From an uncultured Bacilli bacterium (GTDB taxonomy: Bacteria > Bacillota_I > Bacilli_A > RF39 > UBA660): 41,070 nt of DNA. The stretch is from positions 1-41,070 of the forward strand of contig CALVSW010000010.1 of assembly GCA_944359625.1 (NCBI GenBank), written 5' to 3'. The translations under genes were made by a program, and so were the position numbers. The stretch's first letter is position 1; every line of letters begins with the position of its first letter. Below the pieces are notes generated by a model, which worked only from the letters and a program-made list of their open reading frames with translations, did no database searches and was not told the origin of the DNA. This document shows positions 5,762 through 39,816 of the stretch, piece by piece.

Positions 5762-5786
5762 AGTACTAGAAATAGTACTTTTTTTA
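5762..5786 (+). terminator. Ferredoxin terminator
   Basis: A perfect 7-bp stem AGTACTA/TAGTACT with a GAAA loop (5762-5779), then a run of T. It abuts the 3' end of repeat cassette A on the opposite strand. Confidence 0.9.
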
Positions 5787-5972
5787 TTGCAGATTGATTA
5801 CCGGACGCAAGCCATTGCCACTGTGCACCCAGTCGCCGGTAGCGCTACCAGCCGCGTACTGATCGAACTCGACAGCAGAAAAGGCGCTAGAGTCGAAATT
5901 GCGCGGCGACATGGACCAATAATAGCCATTTTGGTATAGATAAGTTAAGCGATTCATATATCCGGTGGCAAA
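5786..5972 (-). repeat. Orphan DGR-type variable cassette A
   Basis: A GC-rich insert of about 187 bp in AT-rich surroundings. Read on the minus strand it has the constant 5' arm TTTGCCACCGGATATATGAA through TGGTCCATGTCGCCG, a variable core at 5801-5913 (113 bp), and the constant 3' arm ending CCGGTAATCAATCTGCAA, then a TAA stop. The reading frame is open and would encode ...YYWSMSP-[variable]-NGLRPVINLQ, like the C-terminus of DUF6273-type surface proteins. No ribosome site or upstream gene body exists, so it is an isolated 3' gene fragment. It starts 12 bp after the rpoC terminator T-run, on the same strand. Core differences from the template-like repeat at 23426 fall largely at that repeat's adenines. 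Confidence 0.85.
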
Positions 5973-5983
5973 GAATAAAAATA

Positions 5984-17068: not shown

Positions 17069-17281
17069 TTTGCCACCGGATATATGAATCGCTTAACTTA
17101 TCTCTACCAAAATGGCTATTATTGGTCCATGTCGCCGCGCTATTTCAGCTCTGGCAGCTCTTCTGCTGACGAGTTCGGTCAGTACGCGGCTGGCTTTGCT
17201 AGCGGCGGCAGCTGGGTGACCGACGGCAATGGCTTGCGTCCGGTAATCAATCTGCAAGCTGATGGCACTAGTAAGAAGTAA
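17069..17281 (+). repeat. Orphan DGR-type variable cassette B
   Basis: A GC-rich insert with the constant arm TTTGCCACCGGATATATGAA, a variable core at 17128-17243 (116 bp, one codon longer than cassettes A and E), and the constant end CCGGTAATCAATCTGCAA. It then continues as Ala-Asp-Gly-Thr-Ser-Lys-Lys before TAA, which looks like the native C-terminus of the parent gene. The frame is open. It lies between the M23 hydrolase start and the rny terminator, with no promoter, ribosome site or upstream gene body. Confidence 0.85.
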
Positions 17282-23072: not shown

Positions 23073-23104
23073 AAAAGTTGTTTAGCAATGCTTGACAACT
23101 TTTT
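23073..23104 (+). terminator. uppP terminator
   Basis: A 9-bp stem AAAAGTTGT/ACAACTTTT with a 13-nt loop and a T-run. Cassette C begins 2-3 bp after the T-run. Confidence 0.88.
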
Positions 23105-23106
23105 CT

Positions 23107-23322
23107 TTTGCCACCGGATATATGAATCGCTTAACTTATCTCTACCAAAATGGCTATTATTGGTCCATGTCGCCGTCCTATTTCGACTCTGGCGCTTCGG
23201 CTGCTTATGGGTTCAGTCAGAGCACGGCTGGCGATGCTTTCGGCTACGTCTATGTGACCAGCGACATTGGCTTGCGTCCGGTAATCAATCTGCAATCTGA
23301 TGTCACAATAAGTAAAAGATAA
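23107..23322 (+). repeat. Orphan DGR-type variable cassette C
   Basis: The constant 5' arm from TTTGCCACCGG, variable core 23166-23281 (116 bp), constant CCGGTAATCAATCTGCAA, then Ser-Asp-Val-Thr-Ile-Ser-Lys-Arg and TAA. The tail SDVTISKR resembles the natural ends of DUF6273-type proteins. The core is the most diverged of the four: Trp of the conserved TGG is Tyr, and one GCG is ACG. The frame is open and there is no ribosome site. It follows the uppP terminator directly on the same strand. Confidence 0.85.
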
Positions 23323-23425
23323 TTAAATTTATATTAATATTTTATACTGAATTTTAAAATTAGAAATGGTAAAATATTTATAGATGTATTTTTCATCTAG
23401 GGATAATCTACATTTGATACAGGCA

Positions 23426-23538
23426 CATGTCGCCGAACAATTTCAACTCTGGCAACTCTGCTGCTAACGAGTTCCGTCAGAACGCGACTGGTAATGCTAA
23501 CAACGACTGGGTGACCAACACCAATGGCTTGCGTCCGG
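23426..23538 (+). repeat. DGR template-repeat-like copy (TR)
   Basis: A 113-bp copy of the variable core without the constant 5' arm: homology to the cassettes begins at CATGTCGCCG and ends at TTGCGTCCGG, with unrelated flanks. It has AAC or AAT at codons 1, 2, 4, 7, 11, 16, 20, 22 and 23, exactly where the four cassettes vary. Against cassette E, 15 of the 22 differences are at adenines of this copy. Seven are not, including codon 14 (CGT here; GAT, GGT, AGT or AAT in the cassettes), so it is either a drifted template or not the one that made these cassettes. No reverse transcriptase gene lies beside it. Confidence 0.75.
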
Positions 23539-23743
23539 ATTCCTACTACGATTAGTAATACTAATGTACTGAGAATAGATGATTATGGTTATCTGTTAGA
23601 AGAAGTAGTAAGTATATAAAAATATACTTATTGTAATCTAATTACAGATTGGAAACGAGATTATTCCTTGGTAATTTACCAGAACAAAAATACAGATGTT
23701 AAAAACTACTATAAGTATTTTAAGACTATAAACTGTATTAGAT
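23539..23743 (+). ncRNA. Structured non-coding region after the TR-like copy
   Basis: No ORF of note. Several perfect short hairpins follow one another: a 9-bp stem TAAGTATAT/ATATACTTA with an AAAA loop (23609-23630), a 6-bp stem TGTAAT/ATTACA (23632-23646), and TGGTAA/TTACCA near 23670. In known DGRs the RNA downstream of the template is a structured spacer needed for cDNA priming, so this may be that part of a TR transcript. Upstream, 23323-23425 holds a possible -10 (TAAAAT, 23370-23375) and a 6-bp hairpin (23381-23399). The RNA assignment is inference. Confidence 0.3.
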
Positions 23744-23770
23744 AAAGCAGAATTTATTCCTGTTTTTTTA
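23744..23770 (+). terminator. Terminator-like hairpin before cassette E
   Basis: AAAGCAG pairs with CTGTTT with one bulged base around a loop of about nine, then seven T. Weak but terminator-shaped; cassette E starts at its end. Confidence 0.5.
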
Positions 23771-23962
23771 TTTGCCACCGGATATATGAATCGCTTAACT
23801 TATCTCTACCAAAATGGCTATTATTGGTCCATGTCGCCGTTCAGTTTCTACTCTAGCGCCTCTTCTGCTCTCGGGTTCAATCAGTACGCGACTGGCTATG
23901 CTGTCGACTACTGGGTGACCAACGGCAATGGCTTGCGTCCGGTAATCAATCTGCAATATTAG
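23771..23962 (+). repeat. Orphan DGR-type variable cassette E
   Basis: The constant 5' arm from TTTGCCACCGG, variable core 23830-23942 (113 bp), constant end CTGCAA, then TAT TAG. The frame is open and the translated core is FSFYSSASSALGFNQYATGY followed by AVDYWVTNG. The last 17 bp overlap the 3' end of the convergent gene at 23946, whose stop codon and final two or three codons are cassette sequence read in antisense. No ribosome site or gene body upstream. Confidence 0.85.
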
Positions 23963-24596
23963 GATTAGTTAAAGCTAATTTTTTAGTTGATTTATCTAGT
24001 TGTGAAGATATTTCTGGTCTACTACTTAAATCATTTAGATAATCTTTAGCTTTCTGTAATAAAACTTGATTAATTGTTTTTCTAATGCCATTATCAAATG
24101 TATATATACTATTCTTATTAATATCAACTGAAATTATAGTATGTAAATTATTTTCATAACTCTTTTTATAATAATTATATGAACAACTTATTATCTTTTT
24201 TTCTTTAGCTACCTCTAATGGTATTAATACTTCTTTACCATTATCAAGATATATAACAATATTATTTAATGTATCGATTTTAACATTTTCATATAAAGAT
24301 GTTGGATAATAATAAACTACCATAACATAATCAGGATTATTATAAGTTTCAACTGGTTCAGGTAAATCTGGTATTTCTTCTGAAAAATTAATAAAAAAAC
24401 ATGGTTCTAAGGCATTATTATCTGTTATACTTGCACGATAATAAATATAAAAATTATCATAATTATTACGTAAGAAATAGCTTCCATTTGTATTTAATCT
24501 ATCATTTAAATAACCTTTATTACAATATAAATTAGAATATAAACAGAACATATATTCACTACTTGTTAACTCTTTACCATACTTATTAAAATACAT
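23946..24596 (-). CDS. Downstream part of a frame-split gene (C-terminal region of the membrane metalloprotease)
   Basis: This 216-codon open frame has no ribosome site at its first ATG. Read further upstream in the same frame it continues through LNLLNKNEDGNFNYSEIDSY back to a seven-T run near 24663, where the upstream protease ORF terminates in the other frame. The upstream part contains an EF-hand-like loop (N-x-N-x-D-G-x-F-x-x-x-E). Deletion of one T would join the two ORFs into one protein of about 510 aa. Its own 3' end has been changed: the last codons and the TGA stop come from cassette E. It is probably not translated alone unless slippage occurs. No family recognised for the C-terminal region. 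Confidence 0.5.
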   Translation of the reverse strand: MYFNKYGKELTSSEYMFCLYSNLYCNKGYLNDRLNTNGSYFLRNNYDNFYIYYRASITDNNALEPCFFINFSEEIPDLPEPVETYNNPDYVMVVYYYPTSLYENVKIDTLNNIVIYLDNGKEVLIPLEVAKEKKIISCSYNYYKKSYENNLHTIISVDINKNSIYTFDNGIRKTINQVLLQKAKDYLNDLSSRPEISSQLDKSTKKLALTNPNIAD

Positions 24597-30842: not shown

Positions 30843-30867
30843 AAAAAACCAGCTTCATACTAGTTTT
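30843..30867 (-). terminator. Terminator of the 63-aa gene
   Basis: AAAACTAG pairs with CTGGTTTT (one G-T pair) around seven bases, then a T-run on the minus strand. Confidence 0.7.
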
Positions 30868-30871
30868 TTAT

Positions 30872-31063
30872 TTATCTTTTATTTATATAATCTTTATTAG
30901 TCATTAATCTTGGTTTAATAACTAAACTATCAGTATCAGTTATATTCTTATTAAAAGTTTCAAAGTTATAACCATATTCATTAAATACATCAGTATATTT
31001 CTTTTCTTTAGCATCTTTATATATAAAATTTCTAGTTTTATACATGCTACTTATTCTACTCAT
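30872..31063 (-). CDS. Small hypothetical protein
   Basis: A 63-aa soluble, basic and Asn/Tyr/Lys-rich protein (MSRISSMYKTRNFIYKDAKE...). AGGTGG lies 5 nt before ATG 31063 and a terminator follows its stop, so it appears to be a genuine gene rather than chance. It lies downstream of thiI on the same strand, 45 bp away. No family recognised. Confidence 0.6.
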   Translation of the reverse strand: MSRISSMYKTRNFIYKDAKEKKYTDVFNEYGYNFETFNKNITDTDSLVIKPRLMTNKDYINKR

Positions 31064-31108
31064 ATTACCACCTAGTAATATTATGTAAAAAAATACTGAT
31101 ATTATGTA

Positions 31109-32293
31109 TTATAAAATATCTTCATATTCTTTATCTCTTTGATGAGGGTTTATCTTAATTACTTGAGAAGTTTTAATAGCATTATAAATCATATCTTGGT
31201 AAGGTATTAATTTTTCATATTCTTCACATTTTCTTATATCAGGATTAATTACCGGATGTTTAGGTACGAATATTGTACAACAATCTTCAAAAGGTAAAAT
31301 ACTTGTATTATATGTATCTATTTTATTAGCTAAATTAATTATTTCTAATTTATCAAAACAAGCAACTGGTCTAATTACTGGTATATCAACAACTTTATTA
31401 ATAGCATTCATACTAGTTAGTGTTTGACTAGCTACTTGACCAATTGATTCCCCATTAATAATTATTTTACAATTATTTCTTTTACATAATATTTCACTTA
31501 TACGATACATCATTCTTCGCATAATAGTTATTAGATAATTATTAGGAATCTCTTTATAAATAGTTTCTTCTATCTCGGTAAAATTGATAATATGGACTTT
31601 TATTTCTGTATTATAAATAGCTAATTTTCTGGCTAATTCTAAAACTTTATTTTTAGCTTCTAAAGAAGTATGAGGCGGAGCTTCAAAATAAACACACTCA
31701 ATTTTAATTCCCCTTTTCATAGCTAAATATCCAGCAACTGGCGAATCAATTCCCCCACTTAACATTAATAACCCCTTACCTAAAGTAGAAACAGGATAAC
31801 CCCCAATTCCCATTATATCTTCAAAATAAATATAAGCATCATCTTTACGTATTTCAATATTTAAAAATAAATCAGGATTATGAACATCTACCTTAATACC
31901 TTTAATATTCTTTAATAAATATGCTCCTATCTTTTTAGATACTTCCATACTATTTAAAGGATAAGACTTATTACTTCTTTTAGTAATAACTTTAAATGTA
32001 TTAAATTCTTTATCTTTTAATAATTCTAAGGATGATTTACTTATTGTATCCATATTATTATCTATTTTATAACCAATAGTAAATTTATGAATACCAAATA
32101 CATTTTTTAAACGTTTAATAACTTCTTCAAGATTATTTGAATAAATAAACATTCTTGTTTTATCATAAGTTATATTATAATCTAGATTATCTAAACTACT
32201 AATAATATTATTTTTTAATACTTTTATAAAATAATTAATATTATCTTTCTTAGTAGATAATTCTCCATATTTTATAATAATTACTTTATCCAT
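31109..32293 (-). CDS. thiI: tRNA 4-thiouridine synthetase ThiI
   Basis: About 394 aa from ATG 32293 (AGGTGATTG upstream; a TTG at 32299 falls inside that site). It has a ferredoxin-like domain and THUMP RNA-binding domain (about 60-165), then the PP-loop ATPase with LSGGIDSPVAGYLAMKRG (about 180-197). It adenylates U8 of tRNA and transfers sulphur from a cysteine desulphurase. The C-terminal rhodanese domain of the enterobacterial enzyme is absent, as in Bacilli. No NifZ-type cysteine desulphurase lies next to it, which is unusual for Bacilli where the two are often paired. Confidence 0.96.
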   Translation of the reverse strand: MDKVIIIKYGELSTKKDNINYFIKVLKNNIISSLDNLDYNITYDKTRMFIYSNNLEEVIKRLKNVFGIHKFTIGYKIDNNMDTISKSSLELLKDKEFNTFKVITKRSNKSYPLNSMEVSKKIGAYLLKNIKGIKVDVHNPDLFLNIEIRKDDAYIYFEDIMGIGGYPVSTLGKGLLMLSGGIDSPVAGYLAMKRGIKIECVYFEAPPHTSLEAKNKVLELARKLAIYNTEIKVHIINFTEIEETIYKEIPNNYLITIMRRMMYRISEILCKRNNCKIIINGESIGQVASQTLTSMNAINKVVDIPVIRPVACFDKLEIINLANKIDTYNTSILPFEDCCTIFVPKHPVINPDIRKCEEYEKLIPYQDMIYNAIKTSQVIKINPHQRDKEYEDIL

Positions 32294-32318
32294 TTGCAAT
32301 CACCTAACTTATATTATC

Positions 32319-32349
32319 AAAAAAAGTTGTAATTATCTACAACTTTTTT
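32319..32349 (-). terminator. Terminator after the methyltransferase gene
   Basis: AAAAAAGTTGT pairs with ACAACTTTTTT around eight bases, overlapping the methyltransferase stop; T-run on the minus strand. It separates that gene from thiI. Confidence 0.85.
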
Positions 32350-33193
32350 CCCATCTAGCATAAATACCACAAGGTAATATTAAATTAGAATTAACCATAG
32401 GTAAGCCTAATTCATCAGATATTATATTACCTTTTGGCAAACAAATCTTTAATATATTTTCTAAAACACTCATTGATAAACCAGTAGTATAAGAATTTAT
32501 TAAAAACATAATTGGATTATCAGATAATAATTTACTACATAAATTAACTAATTCATATAAATCTTTTTCAATATCCCATACTTGCCCATTTGCTCCTCTA
32601 CCAAATGAAGGAGGATCCATTAAAATAATATCGTATTTATTTCCACGTCTTATTTCTCTTTCAACAAACTTTTTACAATCATCAACGATAAAACGAATAG
32701 GTTTATCTTCTAAACCTGATGATTTTACATTTTCTTTAGCCCATTCAACCATACCACGAGATGAATCAACATGGCATACACTGGCACCTGCACTTAAAGC
32801 AGCAACTGATGCTGCTCCAGTATAAGCAAATAAATTTAATACTTTGACATTTCTTTTAGCATCTTTAATTTTTTCTTGAATTAGATTCCAATTATAAGCT
32901 TGTTCAGGAAATAAACCAGTGTGTTTAAAACCCATTAATTTTAAATTAAAAACTAATTCATGATAATGTATTTGCCAAGTACTAGGTATTTTACTATTAT
33001 TTATCGTCCATGATCCCCCACCTTTATTACTCCTATTATAAGTAGCATCAATATTATATTTTTTATCACTTATCTTAGGCCATATTATTTGGGGATCTGG
33101 ACGTGATAATATTATATTATTCCACTTTTCTATCTTTTTACCATCATACATATCAAGAATTTGATATTCATTAAAATCTCTTATAACTTGCAT
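32333..33193 (-). CDS. SAM-dependent methyltransferase (RlmI/RlmK-like core)
   Basis: A 286-aa class I methyltransferase. The SAM-binding motif I reads VLNLFAYTGAASVAALSAGA (about 116-135), with an acidic motif II (CHVDSSRGMVEWAKEN) and the DPPSFGRG motif IV (about 190), the signature of the rRNA cytosine/guanine methyltransferase relatives in the Methyltrans_SAM family. No PUA domain is present at the N-terminus, unlike full-length RlmI. It most likely modifies rRNA, but the target base is not predictable. It follows the HAD gene closely and may be cotranscribed. Confidence 0.85.
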   Translation of the reverse strand: MQVIRDFNEYQILDMYDGKKIEKWNNIILSRPDPQIIWPKISDKKYNIDATYNRSNKGGGSWTINNSKIPSTWQIHYHELVFNLKLMGFKHTGLFPEQAYNWNLIQEKIKDAKRNVKVLNLFAYTGAASVAALSAGASVCHVDSSRGMVEWAKENVKSSGLEDKPIRFIVDDCKKFVEREIRRGNKYDIILMDPPSFGRGANGQVWDIEKDLYELVNLCSKLLSDNPIMFLINSYTTGLSMSVLENILKICLPKGNIISDELGLPMVNSNLILPCGIYARWEKSCR

Positions 33194-33215
33194 ACTTTCT
33201 CCTTGTATAATTATC

Positions 33216-34004
33216 CTAATTATAAGTTAAATAATTGTCAAGATAATCTTTTAAAAATAAATATAAACCATTTTTATCATTAGTTCCAATTACCCCAGTA
33301 ACAGAATCTTTTAAATCTTTAGTAGAATTCCCCATAGCATAAGAATATTCACAGACATAAGTCATTGATATATCATTATTAGAATCGCCTACACATAAAG
33401 AATTGTTTTTAGTAATTCCTAAATAATCTTGGACTTCTAAAATACCATTTCCTTTAGATACATAAAAAGAAGCTACATCATGAAAATATAATTCATCTTT
33501 ATTATATTTTTTATTTACTAATGATTTAGAAGAATTAACTATTTTAACATTAGGAATTTTATCTAAAAATAATGATTCTATTATTTGCATTCTTTCATAA
33601 TTATTAGAAGTAATAGTAACACTATTTACTTTTAAAGGAATATCTTCTTTATTTATAATTTCCATATTACTTGTTAAAGTATGGGCTACTAATTTACAAT
33701 TATGTTCACTACAATATTTATATATTTTTAATAAATCTTGTTTTCTTAAAGTTTTATTTAATATTAATTTATTTTTTTCTAAATCATAAACAACAGCACC
33801 ATTATTACAAATAATAATATCTTTTATACCTATTTTTTTAGAAATATCTTTAGTATATAAAAAATTACGACCAGTAGTAATAATAACTCTCATTTTTCTT
33901 TTTTTTAATTCTTTTAAAACATTAATTAAAGAAGAGCTAATAAAACCATTTTTATCTGTCATCGTTCCATCTATATCTAAAAATATAGCTTTGACATCTT
34001 TCAT
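33216..34004 (-). CDS. HAD-superfamily Cof-type phosphatase
   Basis: A 262-aa hydrolase of the Cof/YidA subfamily. Motif I is IFLDIDGTMTD (nucleophile and acid Asp, about 8-18), motif II RVIITTGRN, a type IIB cap in the middle, motif III Lys in the central region and motif IV CVGDSNNDISM (about 209-219). Such enzymes dephosphorylate sugar phosphates, flavin precursors or other small metabolites; substrate is not predictable here. It lies between smc and the methyltransferase gene on the same strand. Confidence 0.92.
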   Translation of the reverse strand: MKDVKAIFLDIDGTMTDKNGFISSSLINVLKELKKRKMRVIITTGRNFLYTKDISKKIGIKDIIICNNGAVVYDLEKNKLILNKTLRKQDLLKIYKYCSEHNCKLVAHTLTSNMEIINKEDIPLKVNSVTITSNNYERMQIIESLFLDKIPNVKIVNSSKSLVNKKYNKDELYFHDVASFYVSKGNGILEVQDYLGITKNNSLCVGDSNNDISMTYVCEYSYAMGNSTKDLKDSVTGVIGTNDKNGLYLFLKDYLDNYLTYN

Positions 34005-34084
34005 TATACCACCAGTTTTATTATACTCTTCTTTATAAAATTTTACATTTAATATACAAAAAGCATATGTAAATTATTGTCAAA

Positions 34085-37027
34085 CTATTTATCATCTAAT
34101 TTAACACTAACTAATTTCGAAACACCTTCTTCTTGCATAGTAATACCATACAAGGCATCAGCATATTCCATTGTTTTCTTTTTATGGGTAATTATAATAA
34201 ATTGCGATTTATCTTTCTTTGTTTCTAAATACTTACCAAATATATCAACATTAGCTTCATCTAAAGCCGCTTCTACTTCATCTAAAATAACAAAGGGTAC
34301 GGTTTTAACATTTAAGATACTAAATAATAATGATATAGCCGTTAAAGCTCTTTCACCACCAGAAAAAGCAATAGTGCTATTTAACTTTTTACCTGGTGGT
34401 TGGGCTAATATTTCAATACCTGTTTCTAATAAATTATTAGGATCTGTTAATTCTAAGTGAGCATTACCTCCTCTAAATAAAGTAGTAAATACTTTTTTAA
34501 ATTCTTCATTAATCTTATTAAAAGTGCTAATAAATTTAGATTCCATAATACTATCCATTTCACTAATAGCTTTATTTAAAGAATTCATTGAAGAAGTAAT
34601 ATCTTCTTTTTGATTACTTAAAAATTCATATCTTGTATTTAATCTTTCATATTCACTAATAGAACCAATATTTACTTCTCCTAATTCTTTAATTAAAGAT
34701 TTTAATTTACTAACTTGTAAGCGACTAGTATCTACATCAATATTTATATCTACATTACCAATAGCACCTTCATAAGTCATATTATAATCTTCATTTAAAG
34801 TTAATAAATAACTATCTAATTTAACATCTAATTTACCTAAAGTAACTTCAATACTATTTAATTCACTTTGATACTTATTATAATTAGAATTAATTTTTTT
34901 ATTTTCTAATTCTAATGTTGATATTTCTAATTTATAATCATTTAAATCATTCTTTAACTTATTTAATTCATTATTTAATATATCTTTATTAGTATTTAAT
35001 TTATAATACGTATTAATAACATTTTCTAATTCTTTATCTAAAGAATTATTAAGTTTACTATCAATTGAACTCAATTCATCTTGAATACTTTTATAATTAT
35101 TTAATAATTCATTTAAATTAATATTCTTACGATTTATTATTTCTTGATACTCAATAACTTCTTTTTGATATTCATTACTTTTAGAAGTTAAATTAGCTTC
35201 TTTACTATTTAATTCACTTAATTTATTTTCAATACTTTTTATTTCTTCTTCTAAATTTACTTTTAACTTTTCTAAATTATTTAATTTATATTTATCATCA
35301 AGATTACTATCTTTATTCTTATTTATACCACCAGTTAAAGCTCCACCAGTTAAAGAAATATCTCCTTCTAAAGTTACTATACGATACCTATAATTAATCT
35401 TTTTAGCAATAATATTTAAAGTATCAATATTATCTACTACGATTATATTACCTAATTGATTTTTAATAATATTACTATATATACTATCATAACTTACTAA
35501 ATTACTAGCAATATCAATATAACCTTTTATACTCTTAATACTATTTAAAATATTATCTTCAATAAATCTTTCTTTAATAATATTTAAAGGAAAGAAAGTA
35601 GCTCTTCCTAATCTATTATCTTTTAAATATTTAATAGCATTTTTAGCACTAATTTCATTATCAACAACAATAACATTTTTATTAGTACCTAATACAGTAT
35701 CAATAGCAGTAATATATTCTTCTTTAACATCTATTATTTTACCAATAGTACTATGAATACCTTTTAAACGAGGATTATTTAAAATTGATTTTACTCCTAG
35801 AGGTAAGAAAGTATTATTCATAATATTATCATTTATAATATCTATTTTATTTTTAGTATCTAATAAACTTTTATTCTTAATATTATATTCATTATTATAA
35901 GTAAATCTTTCTTTTCTAATACTTAATAATTCATTTTCTATTTCTTCATATTTATTTTTACAATTATTTAAATAATCTTTATTATCTTTAATACTTTGTT
36001 CTAATACTTTAATATCTTTATCTAATTTTAAAGAATCTTCTTTTAAAGATATAATATTATTATTTAAAGTATTATTATCTACTTCATATTTTTTTCTTTC
36101 ACTTATTAATTGTTTTTTAGCATTAGTATCTGATAATTCTTTTTCTAATTTAATTAATTCTTCATTCTTATTACTTATTTCTTCTTCTATCTTTAAACAT
36201 TTTAATTTTAAATTTTCTAACTTAGCTATATCTTTATTATTATTAAAAGATATTTCTTCTAAAGATTTTCTTAACTCATCAGCATGCGCTTTTAACTTAG
36301 TATAATTATCATTTAAATCTTTTATTTCACATACTATTAAAGATACTTCAATATTTTCTAAATCTTTTTTATAATCTAAATACTTTTTAGCTTTAATACT
36401 TTGTTCTTTTAAAGGTTCTAAAGTAGTATTTAATTCATTAATTAATAAATCTACTCTTTCTAAATTTTCATTAGCTTTTTCTAATTTACGTAGTGATTCT
36501 TCTTTATGTTTTTTATACTTTAATACACCCGATGCTTCTTCAAAAATAATTCTTCTTGATTCTGGTTTAGAATTAACTATTTCATCTACAGAACCTTGAG
36601 AAATTATATTATAAGATTCTTTAGAAGCTCCACTATCAATAAATAACTCAGTAATATCTTTTAAACGAACCTTTACATTATTTAAATAATATTCGTTTTC
36701 ACCAGTACGATAAACAACTCTTTTTACTTCAATTTCATTAAATTCACTATTTAAATAATGATCAGTATTATCAAATATTAAAGATACACTTGCCCTATTC
36801 ATCGCATTACGCGATTTAGAACCAGAAAAGATAATATCACTCATAGAACCAGTTCCACGTAATGTTTTAACTGATTGTTCTCCTAATACCCATCTTACAG
36901 CATCTACGATATTACTTTTACCACTACCATTTGGTCCAACAATACAAGTTATACCCTTATCTAAATTAAGTTCAATTTTAGAAGCAAATGATTTAAAACC
37001 ATTTGCTTTAATACCTTTTAAATACAT
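34085..37027 (-). CDS. smc: Chromosome segregation protein SMC (short-armed)
   Basis: A 980-aa SMC ATPase. The N-terminal head has Walker A GPNGSGKSN (about 32-40). A coiled coil precedes a hinge (about 405-570; PLGVKSILNNPRLKGIHSTI and later GDISLTGGALTGG). A returning coiled coil leads to the C-terminal head with signature FSGGERALTAISLLFSI (about 890) and Walker B FVILDEVEAALDEAN (about 925). SMC of B. subtilis is about 1186 aa; here each arm is shorter, roughly 235-260 residues. Heads and hinge look intact, so this is a compact but functional form. It lies 20 bp after rnc, the usual rnc-smc order in Firmicutes, but ftsY does not follow. Confidence 0.96.
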   Translation of the reverse strand: MYLKGIKANGFKSFASKIELNLDKGITCIVGPNGSGKSNIVDAVRWVLGEQSVKTLRGTGSMSDIIFSGSKSRNAMNRASVSLIFDNTDHYLNSEFNEIEVKRVVYRTGENEYYLNNVKVRLKDITELFIDSGASKESYNIISQGSVDEIVNSKPESRRIIFEEASGVLKYKKHKEESLRKLEKANENLERVDLLINELNTTLEPLKEQSIKAKKYLDYKKDLENIEVSLIVCEIKDLNDNYTKLKAHADELRKSLEEISFNNNKDIAKLENLKLKCLKIEEEISNKNEELIKLEKELSDTNAKKQLISERKKYEVDNNTLNNNIISLKEDSLKLDKDIKVLEQSIKDNKDYLNNCKNKYEEIENELLSIRKERFTYNNEYNIKNKSLLDTKNKIDIINDNIMNNTFLPLGVKSILNNPRLKGIHSTIGKIIDVKEEYITAIDTVLGTNKNVIVVDNEISAKNAIKYLKDNRLGRATFFPLNIIKERFIEDNILNSIKSIKGYIDIASNLVSYDSIYSNIIKNQLGNIIVVDNIDTLNIIAKKINYRYRIVTLEGDISLTGGALTGGINKNKDSNLDDKYKLNNLEKLKVNLEEEIKSIENKLSELNSKEANLTSKSNEYQKEVIEYQEIINRKNINLNELLNNYKSIQDELSSIDSKLNNSLDKELENVINTYYKLNTNKDILNNELNKLKNDLNDYKLEISTLELENKKINSNYNKYQSELNSIEVTLGKLDVKLDSYLLTLNEDYNMTYEGAIGNVDINIDVDTSRLQVSKLKSLIKELGEVNIGSISEYERLNTRYEFLSNQKEDITSSMNSLNKAISEMDSIMESKFISTFNKINEEFKKVFTTLFRGGNAHLELTDPNNLLETGIEILAQPPGKKLNSTIAFSGGERALTAISLLFSILNVKTVPFVILDEVEAALDEANVDIFGKYLETKKDKSQFIIITHKKKTMEYADALYGITMQEEGVSKLVSVKLDDK

Positions 37028-37047
37028 AATTTATACTCAACTCCAAT

Positions 37048-37695
37048 TTATTTTGCTTGTTTATTAAAAGCATCTTTGGCAGCTTCTTGTTCTGCTTCTT
37101 TCTTTGATTTACCAGTACCACGACCAAATATTACATCATCAATACGGACTTCTACGGTAAAAAGTCGATCATGGGCTGGACCAGTTTCGGATACAACTAC
37201 ATATTCTAAAGTTTTCTTATTCATTTGGGTTAATTCTTGTAAAGCACTCTTATAATCACTTAAATAAACTTCATTTTTTTTAATATGAGGAATAACTACT
37301 TGATAAATATATTTTTTAGCAACTTCAAAACCTTTATCTAAATAGATACAACCTAATATAGCTTCAAATATATCAGCAATAATCGTTTCATTTATATCAT
37401 TTAATTGACCATGACCTACTCTAATATAAGATATATAACCTATTTCTTTAGCATATCTATATAAAGCTTCTTCACATACATAAGATGCTCTTTTCTTAGT
37501 CATACCACCTTCTTTTAAATGATCATTTAAATATAAGTATTCACTAATAATAAGTTGTAAGACAGCATCACCTAAAAATTCTAAACGTTCATAAGAATTA
37601 CAATTATGTTCATTAGCATAACTAGTATGTGTTAAAGCTTCTAATAATAAATCTTTATTAGTAATATTTATATTATATTTATCTAAAAAATTCAT
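37048..37695 (-). CDS. rnc: Ribonuclease III
   Basis: A 215-aa double-strand-specific endoribonuclease. The RNase III signature ERLEFLGDAVLQLIISEYLY (about 36-55) supplies the metal-binding acids, with further acidic residues in ETIIADIFEAILGCIYLDKG (about 103-122). A dsRNA-binding domain occupies about 143-213 (GTGKSKKEAEQEAAKDA). AGGAAAGAG precedes ATG 37695. It processes rRNA precursors and cleaves structured RNAs, and is placed upstream of smc as in B. subtilis. Confidence 0.98.
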   Translation of the reverse strand: MNFLDKYNINITNKDLLLEALTHTSYANEHNCNSYERLEFLGDAVLQLIISEYLYLNDHLKEGGMTKKRASYVCEEALYRYAKEIGYISYIRVGHGQLNDINETIIADIFEAILGCIYLDKGFEVAKKYIYQVVIPHIKKNEVYLSDYKSALQELTQMNKKTLEYVVVSETGPAHDRLFTVEVRIDDVIFGRGTGKSKKEAEQEAAKDAFNKQAK

Positions 37696-37776
37696 AAGAC
37701 ATCTCTTTCCTATTAATTACTAACTAAATTATATCAAAAAATCCCTTATTTATAAACTAAAATAAGGGAATATATA

Positions 37777-38133
37777 TTATAATTCATAATAACTTTTAAT
37801 CTCCTTTAATAAATTAAGAGCATCTTCTTTTGATAATTCATCAATATTAATATTTTTTAATTCTTTAATAACATCAATATCTTGTATTTCATCTATAACT
37901 TCAACGTCTAATTTTAAATTCTTAAATACCCTTAAATAATCATCTAATCTCTCAACAGGAAAGCCACATTTATTATATTCATTACTAAATTTAGTAATTT
38001 TTAAAACCATATAATTATTAATAGTATTAACATCTTCTCCTATAAATATATAAAATTTACCTACTTTAAATAAATATAACTTATCTTTATTCTTACTTTT
38101 TAACCTATTATATTCTCTAACTATCTTTGACAC
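37777..38133 (-). CDS. Stand-alone MutS domain I-like protein
   Basis: A 118-aa protein starting at GTG 38133 (GGGTGT upstream). Residues about 5-80 match the mismatch-recognition domain I of MutS: YNRLKSKNKDKLYLFKVGKF corresponds to the ...PDxLLFxxGDF... block, followed by the YIFIGED and NKCGFPVERLDDYLR equivalents (MutS: CGxPxHxxxxYL). The mismatch-reading Phe-x-Glu is only partly kept: FYE reads FYI here. The last 35 residues are helical. No MutS ATPase or connector domain follows. It may bind DNA or have been recruited to another role; it is not a mutS fragment by recent truncation since the frame and start are intact. Confidence 0.6.
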   Translation of the reverse strand: MSKIVREYNRLKSKNKDKLYLFKVGKFYIFIGEDVNTINNYMVLKITKFSNEYNKCGFPVERLDDYLRVFKNLKLDVEVIDEIQDIDVIKELKNINIDELSKEDALNLLKEIKSYYEL

Positions 38134-38335: not shown

Positions 38336-38358
38336 GAATAGCTGTTTCACAGCTATTC
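38336..38358 (-). promoter_or_regulatory. DGR-type target hairpin after the variable region
   Basis: GAATAGCTGT pairs perfectly with ACAGCTATTC around three bases, a 10-bp stem. The stop codon of the surface-protein gene (TAG) lies in the stem. There is no T-run, so it is not a terminator; that follows at 38201-38240. In the Bordetella phage DGR a short inverted repeat just past the variable region is needed for target recognition, and this has the same position. Confidence 0.6.
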
Positions 38359-39816
38359 GGAAGACAACACAACCCGGAACGAATTGTAGGAATACGCATC
38401 ACCACTGTAGTCGTTGAAGTAGAAGACCCCCGCATAAGAGCCATCGCTGTAGTAGCCACCGCGTAGGAACCACGGCTCAGACGAATTGACAAAGTACGCG
38501 TAATCGCCATTCCATCCCTGCGTTTCCTTAGTAGCATCACCTAACTTACCATTAGATATTGATGAACCAGTATATACATCATAATACTTACTATCAATAC
38601 TACCAAAATCGATTCCAGAAGAACCAACGGTTTTATTGTTATTTCCCATGACGTACTCCCAGGCTCCACCACTCATATCATATATTCCATAGATGTTACC
38701 AGTAGTAGAGGCATTCACACCAGTTGATGTATTCCAAGCATTACAAGTGGTACTATCTGCTGCTGATACACTATCTCCAGCACATCCAGTAGTGTAATTA
38801 TTATTTGGATTTATCCACACTTCACATTCAGATGAAGTACATGAACCAGATGCTTCGTATCTCCCATACTTAGAATTAGTAAGATAAGCTACCGCACCCC
38901 ATTCCATATTCTTCATCATATGAGTATCGACTTCAGATGCAGATAAACCATATTTAGCATTTGTTTCAATGGCACGGGAAGCATTGAACATATCGCCTAT
39001 TGTTATATCTCGTAAGCTAGACACATTTGGTATTATCTTAACATCAGATGTTGAATTACTTGATTCAAACTTACCAACCCAAATTCCATTTAATTCGGTT
39101 GTACCAAAAGTGAATGCTGGGTGGGTTAACCATTCACTATTTTGGCTACCACTTGATTTCGAAGTTGTAGAATTTTCAAATTCAACTTCAATCATCTGTG
39201 CAGATGTAGTTGCTCCACTAACATTAAATAACTTATACTTATACCTTGGTATCCATACATACATCTGTAAAACATCGGAAATACTAACTGGTGTTCCTGA
39301 TTTAAAAGAACCATCATCATTTATATATTTTGCTTTTGTTGTAGTATTACTTTGATCTATAAGTATTGCATTTGCCCACTCATGATTATCATAGTTATAC
39401 CATTCACTACTTATATCAGCAACAACAATATCATTGTTATTACTACTATCATAAGTAACTGGAATTAAACCAGCATATAGTTCTGGAACTGATGCAGCAC
39501 TACCATCAAGATATAGGTCTTTTCTAGTAGTAAAACTTACACTACATCTAGTACCTGTTTGAGTAGCATTATAGATTGTTATTGCCCAGTTATCATAATC
39601 CCAGGTAGCATTAGCACCCTTATCACAAGTTATTGATACATCATAATTACCTTTTTCAGGTATCGTATTAGTTTCTTGTCCATCTACAAAGTAAGCTAAA
39701 TAACTATCATCTATGGGAGTAACTTTAGGTTTATTATAGTTGTCAATAATTGTTAAACTTATTAAAGATATACTTATTATTAAAGAAGTTATTAAAATTA
39801 TTATATACTTTTTCAT
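38353..39816 (-). CDS. Surface protein with C-terminal C-type-lectin-like fold and DGR-type variable region
   Basis: A 487-aa membrane-anchored or exported protein: basic start and hydrophobic helix (about 3-24), then a small Cys-containing domain (about 40-100), a Ser/Thr/Asn-rich middle, and a C-terminal formylglycine-enzyme/C-type-lectin-like domain with GNIYGIYDMSGGAWEYVMG (about 370-388) and the closing FLRGG...AGVFYF...SFRVVLSS. In the last 40 codons the residues between these constant blocks are almost all NNC or NNT codons (Tyr, Ser, Asp, Asn), and the GC content is sharply higher than upstream, as when an AAC-rich template is copied with adenine errors. GAGAGGATAAG precedes ATG 39816. 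Likely an adhesin or ligand-binding protein. Confidence 0.82.
   Translation of the reverse strand: MKKYIIILITSLIISISLISLTIIDNYNKPKVTPIDDSYLAYFVDGQETNTIPEKGNYDVSITCDKGANATWDYDNWAITIYNATQTGTRCSVSFTTRKDLYLDGSAASVPELYAGLIPVTYDSSNNNDIVVADISSEWYNYDNHEWANAILIDQSNTTTKAKYINDDGSFKSGTPVSISDVLQMYVWIPRYKYKLFNVSGATTSAQMIEVEFENSTTSKSSGSQNSEWLTHPAFTFGTTELNGIWVGKFESSNSTSDVKIIPNVSSLRDITIGDMFNASRAIETNAKYGLSASEVDTHMMKNMEWGAVAYLTNSKYGRYEASGSCTSSECEVWINPNNNYTTGCAGDSVSAADSTTCNAWNTSTGVNASTTGNIYGIYDMSGGAWEYVMGNNNKTVGSSGIDFGSIDSKYYDVYTGSSISNGKLGDATKETQGWNGDYAYFVNSSEPWFLRGGYYSDGSYAGVFYFNDYSGDAYSYNSFRVVLSSE

Follow-up and report, generated by a model that had tools for sequence, protein, structure and literature searches.

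The 3' end of a 487-aa protein gene is, almost certainly, the variable repeat (VR) of a target of a diversity-generating retroelement (DGR), made from a template RNA of the TR-B1 type by a DGR reverse transcriptase (RT) and homing, with the Asn positions on the presumed ligand face varied; the loci are now probably mostly frozen. A DGR is a known system that deliberately mutates one small binding site. The gene lies in the 41,070-bp stretch of DNA analyzed here (the window), which belongs to a genome assembly (G000) of 1.25 Mb in 40 contigs that is 91% complete. The locus is a DGR target, but this assembly yielded no complete DGR. Directly observed in G000 are the target with its VR, a template (TR-B) from which the VR differs in an adenine-specific manner, a hairpin at the stop codon and an adjacent accessory gene (MSL); an RT together with TR-B was found in a sister species (G002; CALWAK01, uncultured Bacilli bacterium isolate BRZ_GD__bin14). 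The comparison within the genus covered two other genomes, G001 and G002. The main features are as follows.

38353–39816, minus strand: DGR target gene for a 487-aa protein whose N-terminus is a membrane/signal helix and whose C-terminal domain, putatively FGE-type C-type-lectin-like, has the VR at its end
38364–38501, minus strand: variable repeat VR-B; its 138 nt form a gap-free alignment with TR-B1 of G002
38336–38358, minus strand: hairpin/cruciform with a 10-bp stem and a GAA loop, spanning the TAG stop (38353–38355), at the position of the DGR homing hairpin
37777–38133, minus strand: MSL, an intact DGR accessory gene encoding a 118-aa protein that resembles MutS domain I (PF01624, 47.7 bits)
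37752–37777, no strand: empty slot between rnc and MSL, occupied in G002 by a segment of some 2 kb that includes TR-A, avd and RT-A
G000 contig C2:96141–96273, outside the window and outside any long gene: template TR-B, rich in AAC/AAT, NVNFVNSNNPWLKRGGNHNNGTNAGVFNFNNNNGNANSNNSFRVVLE
G002 contig C46:7161–7006 and 6737–6577: two tandem TR-Bs directly downstream of a DGR-type RT (RT-B)

Variable repeat and its template

A preliminary description of the window had proposed a C-type-lectin DGR target pattern at the 3' end of this gene, with a switch to GC-rich sequence and the constant blocks RGG, AGVF.F and SFRVVLSS. The switch is evident both in the GC content, which is 50% in the last 153 nt versus 33% elsewhere in the gene (and 27% for the window as a whole), and in the third codon position (65% GC in the last 46 codons versus 19% in the body), and the blocks were found at the claimed places in the ORF. 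Since acquired DNA typically shows a jump in GC and terminators are hairpins near stop codons, the tail could be regarded as foreign DNA followed by a transcription terminator. However, the stop codon lies within the hairpin, and what follows the hairpin is TGCACATT rather than a T run. In addition, the GC-rich segment matches TR-B of G000 as well as members of the same protein family from many Bacilli; this explanation is scarcely credible.

When the DNA of the region was searched against G000, four other places matched, namely three homologous target ends (C27:6840, C2:64123 and C1:23144) and one template. The latter is TR-B on contig C2, the AAC/AAT-rich template that had been predicted; upstream it carries a TATAAT-type –10 box and a leader common to the TRs of the sister species. 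The VR differs from it mainly at adenines (19 of 41, versus 11 of 92 other positions), in agreement with the proposed target pattern. Because of the 11 non-adenine mismatches, this TR-B is not the exact template of the VR. Comparison with TR-B1 of G002 gave 16 mismatches at 38 adenines and six at 100 other positions (p = 1.6e-6), and in G002 itself the VR of the orthologous gene differs from TR-B1 at 21 of 38 adenines and at none of the 100 other positions (p = 8e-15). At the codon level, 13 of 16 Asn codons of G002 TR-B1 are changed in the VR studied here, versus one of 25 adenine-free codons. The gene and its G002 ortholog, which are 72% identical overall, differ at 13/16 templated Asn-codon sites versus 3/28 other sites. 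This difference between species is consistent with variation at template adenines only.

The templates themselves diverge between species: TR-B1 of G002 and G001 (where two TR-Bs are located at a contig start) are identical at 158 of 164 positions, and TR-B of G000 and TR-B2 of G002 at 143 of 153. The six non-adenine changes per 100 positions would be about the number expected from such divergence. TR-B1 is the type from which the VR was templated, and the copy left in G000 is of the TR-B2 type; no TR-B1-type template was found in the G000 assembly (91% complete).

Ordinary diversifying selection combined with recombination among paralogous surface genes, without any retroelement, would agree with the presence of several paralogs and of two pairs with near-identical VRs (C27 and C2:64k in G000; a C1 pair in G002). 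It leaves unexplained, however, why the differences from a separate non-coding template fall on adenines only and why RT and Avd accompany the template in relatives, and it is contradicted by the 0/100 non-adenine changes in G002 (p = 8e-15), making it very improbable. As to the pairs (loci L002/L003, i.e., C27:6840 and C2:64123, in G000 and L059/L062 in C1 of G002), their VRs are identical or nearly so, those of C27 and C2:64k differing at one of 16 Asn-codon sites. Such sharing of VRs suggests gene conversion or recent duplication.

The proposed mechanism, as in known DGRs, would start from TR-B RNA: a DGR RT prone to misreading adenines would copy it into cDNA, which would then take the place of the VR through homing at the 3' end, beside the stop-codon hairpin. 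Up to 16 Asn-codon positions would be varied in this way on the presumed ligand face of the putative FGE-type C-type-lectin domain of a membrane-anchored surface protein. In the AlphaFold2 model of the 487-aa protein (mean pLDDT 74.8, with a weaker C-terminal domain in which many residues are below pLDDT 60) the N-terminal helix comprises residues 2–27. The only significant Foldseek match in the PDB was TaqVP (5vf4; E = 2.8e-7), with a TM-score of only 0.31–0.40 and a weak C-terminal model; the same chain was the only match of a sequence profile search against the PDB (E = 0.0027). The Pfam FGE-sulfatase family was matched below its cut-off (E = 0.0014), and 17 of 32 relatives also match it weakly. 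The predicted fold is closest to that of TaqVP, an FGE-type C-type-lectin protein that is itself a DGR target, and by analogy with TaqVP and related proteins the 487-aa protein may have a surface-exposed binding role.

Stop-codon hairpin, accessory gene and reverse transcriptases

The hairpin at 38336–38358, GAATAGCTGT-GAA-ACAGCTATTC, has the perfect 10-bp stem on the stop codon that had been described, with a 3-nt loop and the TAG inside. When the local 60 nt were shuffled by mononucleotides, five of 20,000 shuffles produced an equally long stem, and a mere handful of similar hairpins occur within the window. Like the DGR hairpin/cruciform it lies just 3' of the VR, with the loop GAA instead of GRNA. 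In phage DGRs the loop is a 4-nt GRNA, and the BPP-1 hairpin is located at the stop codon (PMC3240598). The hairpin occupies the position suggested, that of the Bordetella phage target hairpin; its loop differs, with three nucleotides rather than four. The same stop-codon hairpin is present in the G002 ortholog. Under a strict test requiring that the hairpin overlap the stop codon, it was found in 20 of 33 GC-tailed versus two of 36 AT-tailed homologs of the target family (p = 1e-6), and in several family members the loop is GAAA or GAGA, which fits the GRNA seen in phage DGR hairpins. The loops vary by lineage (GAA, GAAA, GAGA, TTTA and TTTG; L005 around 1701–1738, L107, L110, L121, L127, L128, L130 and L139). 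Since they differ between lineages, the loop constraint may be looser here than in phage DGRs.

Of the DGR accessory genes (Avd, HRDC or MSL), it is MSL that is present at the locus, adjoining the target gene; HRDC and MSL/PF01624 are listed among DGR accessory proteins (PMC10053308). Because this neighbor is an MSL, the target gene sits in a DGR remnant. The window MSL is 59% identical to the MSL beside RT-A in G002, where target-A, MSL, TR-A, Avd and RT-A are located together at the chromosomal place corresponding to the rnc–MSL junction of the window. Positions 30865–37752 of the window (through rnc) align to locus L069 1981–8868, and the alignment resumes at L069 10957, at MSL. No bAvd was found in the window slot 37752–37777, its place in G002. 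As MSL, itself a cassette gene, is still present in G000, loss of the slot content here is more likely than gain in G002.

G002 holds two DGR RTs, one per template family: RT-B (motifs IGNYTSQ and YMDD; its N-terminus runs to the contig end) and RT-A (IGNMTSQ). No intact DGR RT with the motif [IVL]GxxxSQ was found in the G000 assembly (91% complete, 40 contigs). RT-A used as a query against G000 gave nothing, and RT-B revealed only a 61-aa remnant at C2:95911–96093, just upstream of TR-B, which matches RT-B residues 169–233 with 64% identity. The two PF00078 matches in G000, the only ones, are both retron-like RTs; they were rejected as DGR RTs, as both score with retron models and are without the SQ motif. 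Their retron model matches were Ec107-like and III-A for one, and II-A with an St85-type effector for the other. They are located at L006 153–2073 and L007 1360–2319, one being Ec107-like and the other adjoining a putative effector, a protein that matches the St85-family effector model below the cut-off.

A second template family and the present state of the loci

Besides family B, the window contains components of an unrelated family A.

23426–23538, plus strand: TR-A, template repeat of family A, not the template of the VR studied here
23107–23306, plus strand: VR-A cassette
23771–23970, plus strand: VR-A cassette
17069–17268, plus strand: VR-A cassette
5785–5980, minus strand: VR-A cassette

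The core of the VR had been described as unlike the cassettes at 23 kb, and indeed there is no alignable sequence between them and two own-genome DNA searches returned disjoint places. A family-A template for the VR was rejected for the same lack of alignable homology. The accompanying suggestion of two templates or two retroelements was supported: two template families are present here and two DGR RTs in G002, with the refinement that G000 has no intact DGR RT in its assembly. The 130 bp downstream of the window TR-A are homologous to the TR-A flank in G002. The genus carries two DGR systems, as the preliminary description had guessed.

In total, G000 contains no fewer than 34 distinct VR-A cassettes, each about 190 bp long, and only one of them has an in-frame stop. 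They are distributed over the window and contigs C1, C2, C4, C7–C9, C12, C14, C20, C21, C31, C32 and C35. The ones examined closely are short ORFs (about 70–95 aa) with the common 5' boundary TTTGCCACCGGATATATGAATCGC, from which the rest of the target gene is apparently absent, and some form tandem arrays of 336–367 bp. The cassettes could be a silent store for gene conversion.

A VR-A/TR-A/VR-A triad is repeated with 88–96% identity at several loci (window 23103–23957; L039 7288–8138 and 12887–14035; L038 82–639). On contig C20, a segment that includes an integrase gene (L039 11038–12180) lies between two triad copies, as if an element had been inserted by recombination. Most VR-A cassettes vary at positions that are A in the C20-type TR (L039 7601–7726) and C or G in the window TR-A; the C20-type TR therefore suits most of them better as a template. 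We also considered that the free-standing template RNAs (TR-B, and TR-A in four scattered copies that include the downstream flank) are independent genes served in trans by an RT located elsewhere, with one cell holding two unrelated DGR template families, four family-B targets, more than 30 small family-A cassettes and a possible gene-conversion store; this picture seems rather unlikely.

Since RT-B is reduced to a remnant and both avd and RT-A are absent, the loci would now be mostly frozen in this lineage. Unless an RT is encoded in the approximately 9% of the genome that is unassembled, these targets are probably frozen, and the intact MSL together with the scarcity of stops in the VR-A cassettes argues that any loss of the RT was recent. 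A system still active in G000, in which a DGR RT from the unassembled part or from another replicon acts in trans on TR-B and the VR, is possible but somewhat doubtful. It would fit an assembly that is 91% complete in 40 contigs, an intact MSL, target ORF and hairpin, a TR-B that keeps the TATAAT-type –10 box and the leader common to the sister species, and 34 distinct VR-A cassettes with a single in-frame stop. At the same time, both positions occupied by RTs in G002 are contiguous in G000 and are either empty or decayed, a TR-B1-type template is absent from the assembly, and non-adenine mismatches amount to 6/100 for the VR against the sister TR-B1, a figure that includes species divergence, and to 7% for VR-A against the C20 TR.

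Complete cassettes in relatives and comparison with known DGRs

The four targets of G000 were compared with 84,980 species genomes, and 196 matching stretches were revealed; among the matches listed nearly all were Bacilli MAGs, with a few Tenericutes or unclassified bacteria. Three loci (L118, L127 and L081) contain a complete cassette of a homologous target, TR, MSL, Avd and RT. The TR–VR mismatches are again concentrated at adenines: 19/25 adenines and 0/71 other positions in L118, 16/38 and 1/114 in L127, and 10/39 and 0/110 in L081. In all three, bAvd (PF22296; 62–71 bits, cut-off 40) and RVT_1 (58–66 bits) score above the cut-off. MSL is located between TR and avd-RT in L118 and L081, where MutS_I is above the cut-off, and also in L127, where it was assigned from the ORF sequence only.

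DGR-driven surface diversification with putative FGE-type lectin targets, MSL and stop-codon hairpins extends across many small-genome animal-gut Bacilli, for which these loci provide three complete reference cassettes. A literature search pairing DGRs with RF39 or Tenericutes found nothing relevant. G000 looks as if caught after loss of the enzymes and before loss of the template and targets, and how long DGR targets outlast the RT can be tested by comparison of strains.

The locus is a true DGR target that has a template family of its own. Its mechanism is ordinary and its setting unusual: the template, the target and the accessory gene have been kept in an assembly that lacks both retroelement enzymes. 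Trichodesmium erythraeum has two DGR RTs whose targets are remote (PMC8867640) and resembles the sister species G002 in having two DGRs in one genome and distant targets; it belongs to a different phylum, and in G000 both RTs are missing or decayed. In Treponema denticola, DGRs have several remote surface targets, and strains that have lost RT and TR still keep diversified VRs (PMC4891356). Remote surface targets and diversified targets left over after RT loss are common to both cases, but in G000 one TR-B and a scrap of RT are left, and another template family, unrelated to the first and with 34 or more VR cassettes, is also present.

The Bordetella phage BPP-1 DGR (mtd/TR/avd/brt) shares adenine-specific TR-to-VR differences at Asn codons, the VR at the 3' end of the target, the stop-codon hairpin (PMC3240598) and, as seen here in relatives, Avd and RT beside TR. 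In contrast to BPP-1, the system described here is chromosomal and found in AT-rich gut Bacilli, has a 3-nt GAA loop instead of the 4-nt GRNA and includes MSL, with the RT absent from the assembly and TR remote from the target. The closest solved fold is that of the Thermus aquaticus DGR protein TaqVP (5vf4), the sole PDB profile match and an FGE-type C-type lectin (PMC6328139). Identity to it is only about 15%, and TaqVP is prophage-encoded, whereas the protein studied here has an N-terminal membrane helix and is encoded among chromosomal housekeeping genes.
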